This document shows positions 42,097 through 46,578 of a DNA stretch of 64,000 nucleotides, one piece after another (the first letter of the stretch is position 1; every line of letters starts with the position of its first letter). Made by a program: the position numbers and the translations under genes. The notes beneath the pieces are model-generated. The model was given only the letters and a program-made list of their open reading frames with translations. It had not been told where the DNA came from and searched no databases. Source of the stretch: Phormidesmis priestleyi BC1401 (GTDB taxonomy: Bacteria > Cyanobacteriota > Cyanobacteriia > Leptolyngbyales > Leptolyngbyaceae); contig NZ_LXYR01000003.1 in the NCBI RefSeq assembly GCF_001650195.1, positions 62,001 through 126,000 on the forward strand, in the 5' to 3' direction.

Positions 42097-42107
42097 GTTG
42101 ACGCAAT

Positions 42108-42139
42108 GAAGTACCCCATCTAAAACAGCGGGGTACTTC
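42108..42139 (+). terminator. nrdJ terminator hairpin
   Basis: GAAGTACCCC (42108-42117) pairs perfectly with GGGGTACTTC (42130-42139), followed by GTTTAG, 11 bases after the nrdJ stop. Confidence 0.75.
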
Positions 42140-42215
42140 GTTTAGTAAAATCAAGCGGCAGATAGCCTTGAACGCAACACAAACAGACTTTCGATATATT
42201 CATTTAAATTGAATA

Positions 42216-43142
42216 ATGCACGAATCTAATGTACTGACGCACGGATCTAACGCACTTCGGAGACTGGAAGAACTGCTTACCGAAGCAGTTACTAATGGAG
42301 ATGGGAATGAACTATCGGGACTTATTTTGTTGAGAGCAATGAAGCTTAGTGAGCAGCCACAAAATATTGTGGACTTTTACGAGCTTTTGAGTAAGGCTGA
42401 GGAAGAAGCAAAAAGTATAAGAAATAAAACAAAGATCGATAGGTACATTCAGACACTAGAAGAACTGCATAAAGTTTTTGTTGTTAGCCATATATGGAGC
42501 ACACAATGGGCTATTTTTGCTGGTCAAATTAACAACAATATTCTTAATACATTGGATTCCCTAGCGGATCTTTTTGATAAGCAAAATCCTGCAATATTTC
42601 TAGACCAAGAATTTCTAGAGAAACTCAAAGATGAATTTAGTGATCTTTTGACTAAAATCCTCGAATCTGATTTGTCTAGAGACTTAAAGATATTTTTGAG
42701 AGAGCGAATTGAAGATATTCTGAGAGCAATACGTAGATACCCCATAGACGGAACTGAAGGATTGGAAAAGGCTACTAAATCATTCGTGAGTGATTTAGCC
42801 ATGACAGAGCATAGTCTTCAGGAGAAGGACAAGGATGCTCCCATCTACAGGAGAGTTAAAGCATTTGTGCTCAGCTCGATTATGTATACCGCTCCTATCA
42901 TTGGAGCTATTCCTGATATTGATGGTTATTGGAGACCTAAGTTTGAGGAGTTAGTTGCAGGTCATGAAAAGGTCGAGAAGATCCTTTGTGAATCACCAAA
43001 TATTCAAGAAGCTTTTGAAAAGTCTTCCAAGATATTTGATAGGCAACCACAGAAGATCATCACAGGTAATAGAGAGCCGAAAGCCCTTCCTGCTTCCAAG
43101 CAAGAGCTAGAAACTAATACAAACAATAAAAGTAATCCATAA
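42216..43142 (+). CDS. Unknown helical protein, AT-rich
   Basis: 308 residues. I do not recognise it. It is almost entirely helical, acidic in the middle, with a hydrophobic stretch at about 216-233 (AFVLSSIMYTAPIIGAIP), perhaps membrane-associated. The C-terminus is a low-complexity, Asn/Thr/Lys-rich tail. The DNA is richer in A and T than its neighbours. It is followed by toxin-antitoxin genes, so it may belong to an acquired island; a defence role is only a guess. Confidence 0.65.
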   Translation: MHESNVLTHGSNALRRLEELLTEAVTNGDGNELSGLILLRAMKLSEQPQNIVDFYELLSKAEEEAKSIRNKTKIDRYIQTLEELHKVFVVSHIWSTQWAIFAGQINNNILNTLDSLADLFDKQNPAIFLDQEFLEKLKDEFSDLLTKILESDLSRDLKIFLRERIEDILRAIRRYPIDGTEGLEKATKSFVSDLAMTEHSLQEKDKDAPIYRRVKAFVLSSIMYTAPIIGAIPDIDGYWRPKFEELVAGHEKVEKILCESPNIQEAFEKSSKIFDRQPQKIITGNREPKALPASKQELETNTNNKSNP

Positions 43143-43169
43143 CCTTTAATTGTGTTGTCAGGCAGTGCC

Positions 43170-43520
43170 TCAAAGGGGGAGCTTTGCAATGCGATCGACC
43201 CACTCTTCTGCACTAGAAGCCGCCCAAATCAGCAATAGTTCGTCGATAATCACTTCGATCGTTACCTTCCTAGAGACAATGATCACGCCTGAGCTTTGAT
43301 TGCTGGTGATGAAGTCAGCAAACTCTAATGGCATTGTTTTCTGATCGTGACTCACAAGAATGCGCGCTTGTTGTGCTGCGATCGCCAAAACTTCTGCATC
43401 TTTAACACCATCTAACCCAGCAGCAAAGGCAGTTTGAAATTCTATTTTAGGTTCTCGTCGTAAAACCCCTGTGACGATCGCTTGATTCAAATCAGCATCA
43501 GCTTGATAGCGAACATTCAC
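43170..43520 (-). CDS. DUF5615 PIN-like toxin
   Basis: 116 residues. MNVRYQADADLNQAIVTGVLRREP, DAEVLAIAAQQARILVSHDQKTMP and FADFITSNQSSGVIIVS match the DUF5615 PIN-like fold, with acidic residues at D8, D10, and D59 of SHDQ. It overlaps the DUF433 gene by 4 bases, a typical toxin second in a type II pair. Confidence 0.85.
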   Translation of the reverse strand: MNVRYQADADLNQAIVTGVLRREPKIEFQTAFAAGLDGVKDAEVLAIAAQQARILVSHDQKTMPLEFADFITSNQSSGVIIVSRKVTIEVIIDELLLIWAASSAEEWVDRIAKLPL

Positions 43521-43846
43521 GACTTCACCTGCTGTTTCCTAGCTTTAGCAGCGATGAGTTTGTTGTATAAAGCAGGATCAGTTGATTGCAACGGCTGAGG
43601 CGTAGCATTAAATTCGGCTTCCTCAGCTTCCAGGTAAGCATCGATTTCGGCACGATTGGCTAGATAGAACGCGATCGCTCCATAAACTTGTTCTAGGGTC
43701 AGCAACGGAAAAGACTGAACGATAGTTTCAGGGGATGATCCATCTCGAAACGCATACACAATAGAGTCAAGAGAAATCCGAGTTCCTTCAACCCAATAAG
43801 CCTCGTTGCGATGCTCTACATAAGATTTAGCTGAAACAACTGTCAT
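43517..43846 (-). CDS. DUF433 antitoxin
   Basis: 109 residues. The DUF433 helix-turn-helix core includes YWVEGTRISLDSIVYAFRDGSSPETIVQSFPLLTLEQVYGAIAFYL. It is the first gene of a DUF433/DUF5615 pair (VapB45-like). The tail carries basic KARKQQVKS. Confidence 0.85.
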   Translation of the reverse strand: MTVVSAKSYVEHRNEAYWVEGTRISLDSIVYAFRDGSSPETIVQSFPLLTLEQVYGAIAFYLANRAEIDAYLEAEEAEFNATPQPLQSTDPALYNKLIAAKARKQQVKS

Positions 43847-44046
43847 ACATTTGTTTTGGCTCTACACACCTTTAATCGTAAACGGATATCGAATCTGTGC
43901 CCGATCGCTCACAACTCCTTCGAGATCACTTCGCTATAGAATTCTGCGGTTCTAGCGCTTGGAGGAAGGGTAAATTCTAAGAAAAGAGCTAATCTAAGGT
44001 CAGATTTCCCACCTGACAAACCTTTTCTATCCTAAAAGGCAAAACT

Positions 44047-44301
44047 ATGCAGACGGTTCAAATCCAGCTTCCTGACACGGTTTTCTCTGCGCTTCGCAAG
44101 GCTCCCGATGAATTTGTTCAGGAAATGCGAATCGCGGCGGCTGTCAAATGGTACGAATTAGGTGAAGTCTCTCAGGGCAAAGCTGCCGAGGTCGCTGGCT
44201 TATCTCGCTCAGACTTTATCTCCGCCCTCACTCGCTACAAAGTCTCTGTCCTGCAATACACCGATGAAGAACTCGCTCAGGAGTTATTGAATGCCGATTG
44301 A
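44047..44301 (+). CDS. UPF0175 antitoxin
   Basis: 84 residues. QTVQIQLPDTVFSALRKAPDEFVQEMRIAAAVKWYELGEVSQGKAAEVAGLSR is the UPF0175 domain, a helix-turn-helix found beside DUF3368 toxins. Its last 11 bases overlap the start of the disrupted DUF3368 gene. Confidence 0.88.
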   Translation: MQTVQIQLPDTVFSALRKAPDEFVQEMRIAAAVKWYELGEVSQGKAAEVAGLSRSDFISALTRYKVSVLQYTDEELAQELLNAD

Positions 44302-44908
44302 TCGAGTTGTCATTAACGCTTCTCCATTAATTGTGTTGTTCAAAAGTAGTCAAGCTGACCTATTGCCGCAACTATTTAACGAAATCTTGGTTCCTCAATC
44401 CGTTTGGGAAGAAGTGACCCTTTCCCAAAGCGATATTGCCTCTCAACAATTACCCAACGCTCCTTGGGCAAGGCAGATGGAGGTTGCTATTCATCCCTCG
44501 ATCCAATACTCCGGACATTTTTTGAGGCAGAGGCTGAAACCCGCATTCCACCGTTGGTATTTGCCTCAGTGATGATGCTGAAACCCGCATTCCACCATTG
44601 GCGATTTAAAATTGTCCGGACTGTTGTCGATCGCGACCTGGGATTTAGGTGCAGGTGAATCCACCGCTTTGAGCTTTGCCCTGAAAAATCCAAGCTATCG
44701 TGCAATGGTGGATGACACCGCCGCAAGACGCTGTGCCCAGACTTTGGGGATCTCAACATTGGGCACCGGGGGCGCGATCGTACTCGCAAAACAACGCGGC
44801 TTAATCGAATCGGTGGGCAATCGCTTACAACTCCTTCGAGATTCAGGATTATGGCTTTCGGAAGAAGTTTTTAACTTACTGAAGCAGAAAGCAGACGAAG
44901 GAGCGTAA
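44291..44908 (+). pseudogene. DUF3368 PIN-like toxin disrupted by miniature element
   Basis: The 5' part encodes MPIDRVVINASPLIVLFKSS through VAIHPSI, and the 3' part IATWDLGAGESTALSFAL through LLKQKADEGA. They are the two halves of a DUF3368 PIN-like toxin. Removing 129 bp (one target copy plus the element) rejoins the halves as HPSIATWDLG in frame, giving 162 residues, the family length. Two in-frame stops (TGATGA at 44570) inside the element end translation early. A TTG at 44612 could in principle start the 3' half alone. Confidence 0.85.
44498..44632. mobile_element. 123-bp miniature element with 6-bp target duplication
   Basis: Element at 44504-44626, with related ends CAATACTCCGGACATTTT and (reverse complement) CAACAGTCCGGACAATTT. 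The direct repeat TCGATC flanks it (44498-44503 and 44627-44632). Inside are two 25-bp direct repeats starting GCTGAAACCCGCATTCC (44533-44557 and 44577-44601) with one difference, and the pair TGAGGCA/TGCCTCA. It has no transposase, so it is a MITE-like element moved in trans. Confidence 0.85.
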
Positions 44909-44937
44909 GCACAGCAGGCTGGCAGAAATCGAGAGAT

Positions 44938-45771
44938 TTAACTCGCGCTCGTTACCTGCTGAACCAAATCCATCACTTGACTACGACTGAGCTTTTCAGA
45001 GCCGTGCAGCATCGCATCTAGCGTGGCATGACCCAACATTAAAATAATCTGACAAAAATCAGACGCAGGACTGCCCACTGGCAGCGACGCAGTGTAAGCA
45101 TCCGCTAACTGAATGTTGCGACGAGCGTAGGTTTGCACATCATCATTCGTCCAACCGTGGGGATAAAACGTGACCCCACGAGTCAAGTCCTCGCCGTGAT
45201 TGCGGAGAATGTTGACCGCTTGCAGCCCCCGACCAAAGCCGATCGCTTCCGTCCGATCAGTCTGAGTGCCGTCATACCAACCCCACAGATCTGAGAGCAG
45301 CAGACCCACCGATCCGGCAACGCTGAAGGTATAGCGATCGAGATCTGTCTCGGTCTGAATCGTCCAATTGCAGTCCGCCCAGTGTGCCATGCGATCTGAC
45401 ATTGCAGCCGTCGATTCCCAAATGCGAGGCGCGATATCAGTCGGAGCCAGGGTTGCCCATTCGCCAATTCTCAGCGAGACTTCGGGGAGTTGCTCGGCAT
45501 ATTCGCCAAACGCTGGAGCAAAATCGCCGTCTTTAAACCCAGTCACACCGGACTGTAGAATCAAGCTGATTTCCCTTAAAATCTTGGCTTTAACGGCGTT
45601 TTCTAGCTGGGGATCATCTTCGATTTCGTCGATCGCTCTCATGCACAGATAAGCAGACGAAACCGCTTCCTGCAAACCCGATGGCAGCCGACTAATGGGA
45701 ATATAGAAGGTTCGACTCGTTTCTTTAAGAATCTCTAATGCGTCTTTACGTAGGTTCATGCTTGTGTTCAC
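44938..45771 (-). CDS. Squalene/phytoene synthase family protein
   Basis: 277 residues. The first aspartate-rich motif is DEIEDD at about residues 48-53 and the second is NILRNHGED at about 191-199, which bind the two prenyl diphosphates via Mg2+. It lacks the usual CrtB sequence context, such as YCRRTDE, and looks closer to squalene synthase-like proteins. The product is a C30 or C40 head-to-head terpene; which one cannot be told from sequence. Confidence 0.85.
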   Translation of the reverse strand: MNTSMNLRKDALEILKETSRTFYIPISRLPSGLQEAVSSAYLCMRAIDEIEDDPQLENAVKAKILREISLILQSGVTGFKDGDFAPAFGEYAEQLPEVSLRIGEWATLAPTDIAPRIWESTAAMSDRMAHWADCNWTIQTETDLDRYTFSVAGSVGLLLSDLWGWYDGTQTDRTEAIGFGRGLQAVNILRNHGEDLTRGVTFYPHGWTNDDVQTYARRNIQLADAYTASLPVGSPASDFCQIILMLGHATLDAMLHGSEKLSRSQVMDLVQQVTSAS

Positions 45772-46347: not shown

Positions 46348-46578
46348 TTAACTTAGATCTTGCACCAGTCTATTCGCTGCGGTTCTGTCCCGCCCGTGAA
46401 TGGAATTCCGGGCTAGCCTTGCGAAGTCCGTTGAAACGGACTGAATACCTCAAACCCTCTTGCAGTCCCTTCAGTGGACTTCGCACCGTTAGACCGTGAT
46501 TTTCAATCACGGGCGGGTCTGAGCCAAAAACGACCCGATCGAACGGGGCTGATTGAGTGGGTGCAAGATCTCAGTTAA
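46348..46578. mobile_element. 231-bp MITE with 19-bp ends and nested hairpins
   Basis: Ends TTAACTTAGATCTTGCACC and (reverse complement) TTAACTGAGATCTTGCACC, one mismatch. The outermost TTAA on each side may be the target duplication. Inside, CCCGCCCGTGA pairs with TCACGGGCGGG, and two more hairpins use AGTCCGTT/AACGGACT and AGTCC/GGACT. No coding potential. It fills most of the 386-bp gap between the EVE gene and typA. Confidence 0.8.

Follow-up and report, generated by a model that had tools for sequence, protein, structure and literature searches.

A stretch of 64,000 nucleotides from Phormidesmis priestleyi BC1401 (the window, whose numbering is used below) contains a gene pair in which the second gene breaks off halfway and resumes further downstream in the same frame, which raises the question of what has come between its two halves. 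The first gene of the pair (44047-44301, + strand) encodes an 84-residue putative antitoxin of the UPF0175 (COG2886-type) family (Pfam PF03683, 101.6 bits), and its end overlaps the start of the second, a DUF3368 putative toxin gene running in the same direction, by 11 nt. These activities are assigned from family membership, and the DUF3368 gene presumably encoded an active toxin. Its frame starts with the ATG at 44291 and meets its first stop at 44570. The ORF list accordingly gives a truncated frame (44291-44572, + strand) made of 71 native codons, which contain no internal stop and align with uninterrupted orthologues (44291-44503, + strand), followed by 22 foreign codons and a stop. The 3' part (44627-44908, + strand) lies in the same frame as the upstream half, is open to the native stop at 44906-44908, and carries the PF11848 domain (38 bits, cut-off 27.3). 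The intervening 123 bp (44504-44626, + strand) have the features of a miniature element (MITE), and we are highly confident that a MITE has inserted into the toxin gene of this UPF0175/DUF3368 pair of a filamentous-type cyanobacterium, moved most likely by the transposase of a ~1.3-kb insertion sequence (IS).

The element starts with CAATACTCCGGACA, its left terminal inverted repeat (44504-44517, + strand), while its right-hand end reads TGTCCGGACTGTTG on the + strand and forms the right terminal inverted repeat CAACAGTCCGGACA on the - strand (44613-44626). The two 14-bp ends of this copy are identical at 12 of 14 positions, and 17 terminal and subterminal pairs are retained in most of 16 divergent copies. 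A target duplication, TCGATC, borders the element on the left (44498-44503) and on the right (44627-44632). An earlier note made from the letters alone had reported the element, its inverted ends and its TCGATC repeats, and these are confirmed with their coordinates. Its statement that only a TGATGA inside the element stops translation needs correction, as the stops number three: the toxin frame reads TGA TGA TGC TGA at 44570-44581 (+ strand), with stops at 44570, 44573 and 44579, and this copy of the pair thus has no intact toxin gene. Since the element brings in these three codons, the gene product is limited to 71 native and 22 foreign residues, and this truncated 93-residue product is presumably inactive. 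The element is open in one frame on each strand (+ and -), and no transposase-like frame is found in its 123 bp. Short and devoid of a transposase gene, ending in inverted repeats, flanked by a target duplication, dispersed in many copies and sharing its ends with an IS, the element shows these attributes of MITEs.

The site as it was before the insertion can be read from orthologous loci. Two genomes from other families of the class (G050 and G041) contain the gene pair at ~80% DNA identity, and their matches to the two flanks both stop where the element lies, overlapping by 5 bp at the junction. Their toxin ORFs are uninterrupted and 162 residues long, and these orthologues, instead of artificially rejoined window flanks, serve as the reference for the intact gene. 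In the alignment the orthologues read CCC-GCGATCGC-TGCTTGG, and the window reads CCC-TCGATC-element-TCGATCGC-GACCTGG. The net difference from both loci is exactly 129 bp, the length of the element plus one repeat. The proposal that removing 129 bp would restore a 162-residue frame is thereby borne out, and the search for an empty site, suggested as a check, succeeds twice. A sequence identical to that of G050 is also recorded under Leptolyngbyaceae cyanobacterium MP9P1.79. The intact orthologues contain the segment VVINASPLI; opposite its Asn, the segment VISDTS of one intact paralogue in the P. priestleyi genome has an Asp, which may be the catalytic Asp usual in PIN domains. The Asn is older than the MITE insertion. 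A search by sequence with an intact orthologue returns no relative in the PDB. Two other uninterrupted DUF3368 genes, each with a small upstream partner gene, are present in the same genome, and the insertion therefore leaves the family in the cell; the antitoxin next to the split gene does lack a full toxin, as had been claimed, in the sense of its own partner.

The 5.55-Mb genome (213 contigs) returns 25 matches to the element, corresponding to about 22 full-length copies at 78-100% identity plus fragments, and these fall into at least three subfamilies. Four copies, the one in the window included, are identical. Among related genomes the 123/124-bp element is patchily distributed, with 18 matches in a related genus (G018), 11 in G008, 7 in G024 and a single one in the other genome of the genus; the plasmid collection contains no full copy. 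When 50 distinct copies from the P. priestleyi genome and its relatives, comprising the 123/124-bp type, a 174-bp type and their relatives, are read with their flanks, 33 display exact 6-bp direct repeats, against ~0.01 expected by chance, while no more than 2 of them display an exact repeat with another length in the 3-8-bp range. More than 20 copies in the genome, together with 6-bp duplications at 33 of 50, are far beyond chance. Likewise, the 14-bp end pattern CAATASTCCGGACA, allowing up to 2 mismatches, yields 152 matches as compared with 22 for a reversed control. Further copies of the 123 bp, which the earlier note had proposed to look for, are thus numerous, with the same ends and 6-bp duplications of their own. 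The family sits mostly between genes: when a copy is counted as genic if a frame stays open for 200 nt or more to each side of its target, 4 of the 34 own copies examined lie within ORFs, the window copy among them. On this count, an in-frame protein-fusion element of the kind of the Rickettsia RPEs was considered and rejected. With three other copies identical to it and its duplication perfect, the insertion is shown to be young when set against the divergence among the copies of the MITE family. The earlier description of the event as well dated goes too far, since this is a relative age and not an absolute date. The 174-bp type is a second element in its own right, with the same ends, mostly 6-bp duplications and more than 10 copies (L010:1522-1695 and L015:501-674, and on contigs C12, C14, C15, C24, C25, C27, C31, C33, C48 and C51), one of which lies inside an IS remnant (L082).

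Matches to the MITE ends that have no partner end nearby lead to an intact IS of 1301 bp on contig C72 of the same genome (L092:695-1995), with ends CAATGGTTCGGACA/CAACACTCCGGACA. It encodes a DDE transposase of at least 381 residues (Pfam DDE_Tnp_1, E = 8e-14), for which the best NCBIfam model is IS701_3 (NF049999; 123.3 bits, below the cut-off of 170), and the IS701 model NF033540 scores 56.3 bits (cut-off 150), short of the curated threshold. A more abundant version of the IS, in about ten copies, is collapsed at contig ends, of which ten are right ends and eight left ends. Many contig breaks of the assembly lie inside the IS701-like element (for example C18:1-593, C65:1-593, C25:1-97 and C41:1-97), and the abundant copy is therefore not fully assembled. 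When the flanks are used to match left with right ends, 7 of the 8 left ends nevertheless find a partner (0.02 pairs expected), with repeats of 6, 6, 6, 6, 7, 7 and 8 bp; the abundant IS therefore mostly duplicates 6 bp, like the MITE. A relative of the IS on a Leptolyngbya boryana plasmid is flanked by the 6-bp repeat GTTAAA; 6-bp duplications, instead of the 4 bp of the IS701 family, are seen in L204 and L198. No intact duplication is seen at the full-length C72 copy or at several relatives. The transposase occurs in all 10 genomes of the order that match the MITE and in 16 of the 32 that do not (P = 0.004). Some matches in the 10-genome set are weak, and restricting the comparison to the five genomes with strong MITE matches gives P = 0.08; as the genomes are related, this co-occurrence counts as support and not as proof. 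A parent IS with the same ends had been named as something to look for, and the genome does contain a larger IS with matching ends and 6-8-bp duplications, which is the probable mobiliser of the MITE. The two have no common sequence beyond ~20 bp of their ends, and the MITE as a plain deletion derivative of the IS is rejected because the similarity ends there.

The insertion may then be pictured as follows. The DDE transposase supplied by a ~1.3-kb IS elsewhere in the genome would recognize the MITE by its 14- to 20-bp ends, excise or copy it, and insert it at a TCGATC target opened by a 6-bp staggered cut, and gap filling at the staggered target would leave two copies of TCGATC. Three TGA codons have thereby entered the toxin frame, and the C-terminal half is missing from the product. 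A competing view is that the MITE was mobilised by a transposase other than the IS701-like one found here. The similarity between MITE and IS is confined to the ends with none internally, as such a reading would have it, but the ends of the IS and its main duplication length match those of the MITE, and the IS has multiple copies in this genome and is present in every MITE-matching genome of the order; we consider another mobiliser unlikely.

That the 123 bp might instead be native and immobile, conserved in this DUF3368 subfamily as an insert or as a structured regulatory segment, has virtually no chance of being correct. It would account for element plus repeat being a multiple of three and for the good predicted RNA fold (z = -3.2). 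However, this fold is mainly due to the inverted ends, to which RNAalifold also gives most of its support with only 2 compensatory pairs, so that no RNA role is claimed, and Rfam has no match at the split-gene locus. The orthologues devoid of the 123 bp and the same sequence at more than 20 unrelated sites, most of them outside ORFs, rule out a native DUF3368 insert. A different objection accepts the insertion but supposes that it is tolerated, with a working or regulated toxin obtained by readthrough, by reinitiation in the second half or by excision of the element. Indeed, the insertion is in phase, both halves remain open frames free of additional stops and frameshifts, and a TTG-started ORF (44612-44908) spans the C-terminal half. 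Yet readthrough would have to pass three in-frame TGA codons within 12 nt, precise excision of such elements is not known, and with three identical sister copies this one may simply be too young for visible decay. A functional toxin is therefore very unlikely in our judgement, and we retain a MITE insertion that breaks the gene.

Prokaryotic MITEs are described as multi-copy elements shorter than 500 bp with terminal inverted repeats, target-duplication repeats, mostly intergenic placement and ends matching those of an autonomous IS, and gene inactivation by their insertion is documented (PMC10969869). The present element resembles them, including the cyanobacterial Nezha (PMC10969869), in size, ends, duplications, copies, mostly intergenic placement and IS-matched ends. 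From Nezha, with which it is compared by description only, the family differs by its 6-bp duplications and its two conserved internal direct repeats. Nezha belongs to another IS family. The IS is similar to the IS701 family in having a DDE transposase of the IS4 superfamily with an IS701 model as its best NCBIfam match. In contrast to that family, whose duplication is highly conserved at exactly 4 bp (PMC2266710), it duplicates 6 bp or slightly more, and its model score is below the cut-off. Members of the IS1634 family make AT-rich duplications of 5-6 bp, have ends starting with C and measure 1.5-2.0 kb (PMC2266710); the IS shares the duplication length and the initial C, but it is 1.3 kb long and scores only 14.3 bits with the NCBIfam IS1634 model (cut-off 100). 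As it fits neither family in full, it is termed IS701-like and is not filed as IS701. A relative in Deinococcus radiodurans (L205) has a transposase 36.5% identical, a 19-bp perfect inverted repeat CAATGGTTCGTGCAGTTTT, a span of ~1322 bp, its right end having been read by eye off the printed sequence, and the flanking repeat ATTCTTA. Its record bears no IS name; because its length and ends match those of IS2621 (1,322 bp, 19-bp repeats; PMC11219805), it is probably IS2621, and this would be the nearest characterised IS found, albeit distant from the IS of P. priestleyi. As for the gene pair, the UPF0175/DUF3368 (COG2886-PIN, VapBC-like) genes of Geobacillus overlap by 8 nt (PMC6929052), and the pair described here has the same gene order, the same two families and a similarly short overlap, but differs in that its toxin gene is split by a MITE. 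The MITE family is new, while the kind of event is known and its biology ordinary: the pair is left with its antitoxin and a broken toxin, and the view of MITEs or of toxin-antitoxin pairs is unchanged. The locus does offer a fully documented MITE-split toxin, for which the target duplication, the empty sites, further copies of the element and its likely mobiliser are all at hand, and the cyanobacterial mobilome gains one MITE family together with an IS group that is not yet filed.

Every 123-bp element contains two copies of the 25-bp motif GCTGAAACCCGCATTCYRCCGTTGG, which in the window form the internal direct repeats GCTGAAACCCGCATTCCACCGTTGG (44533-44557, + strand) and GCTGAAACCCGCATTCCACCATTGG (44577-44601, + strand). 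Over the 16 divergent elements, conservation is 0.76 and 0.79 in the motif copies and 0.53 in the stretch between them. Outside the P. priestleyi genome the motif is found in 8 of the 291 other cyanobacterial genomes sampled, with none for a reversed control; two of these (G259 and G255) contain whole MITEs, and the others have the motif solo. In G281 and G098 the solo motif forms a hairpin loop between a CRISPR array and a cas1-like ORF recognized by eye from the sequence, RT-cas1-like in one of them (L209:1501-1523; L210:1501-1523, - strand in the latter). Rfam searches of the solo-motif loci return chance matches only, in which a G-rich repeat is aligned with miRNA families of plants and viruses. 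The solo motif beside CRISPR may have been inherited with a single ancestral CRISPR locus, or may be left over from insertions. A broader reading assigns the MITEs to a cyanobacterial IS group not described before, with an IS701/IS4-like transposase and 6-bp duplications, and sees in their twice-present conserved 25-bp motif, which in other cyanobacteria stands in hairpin loops beside cas1-adjacent CRISPR arrays, a hint that mobile elements and CRISPR leaders have a functional sequence in common, for example a protein-binding site; this is a rather long shot. In the Allocoleopsis franciscana plasmid pMIC7113.02 (L206:601-627), the core of the motif, 27 bp identical, lies in an annotated hypothetical protein gene with the open frame EAETRIPP.

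The surroundings of the split pair include further genes and repeats. Directly upstream, on the - strand, a DUF433/DUF5615 gene pair (43170-43846) resembles another toxin-antitoxin pair. The other genome of the genus lacks the UPF0175/DUF3368 pair and has no match at the corresponding place for the segment ~42100-44950, which suggests that this segment, including the DUF433/DUF5615 pair, is an acquired island. Upstream of the antitoxin gene, a 39-bp stretch (43888-43926) is 87% identical to the toxin 3' part (~44804-44842) and is perhaps what is left of a previous copy. A ~53-bp sequence (46348-46400), located downstream of the neighbouring genes, is another dispersed short repeat and matches more than 20 other sites of the genome at 85-100% identity.
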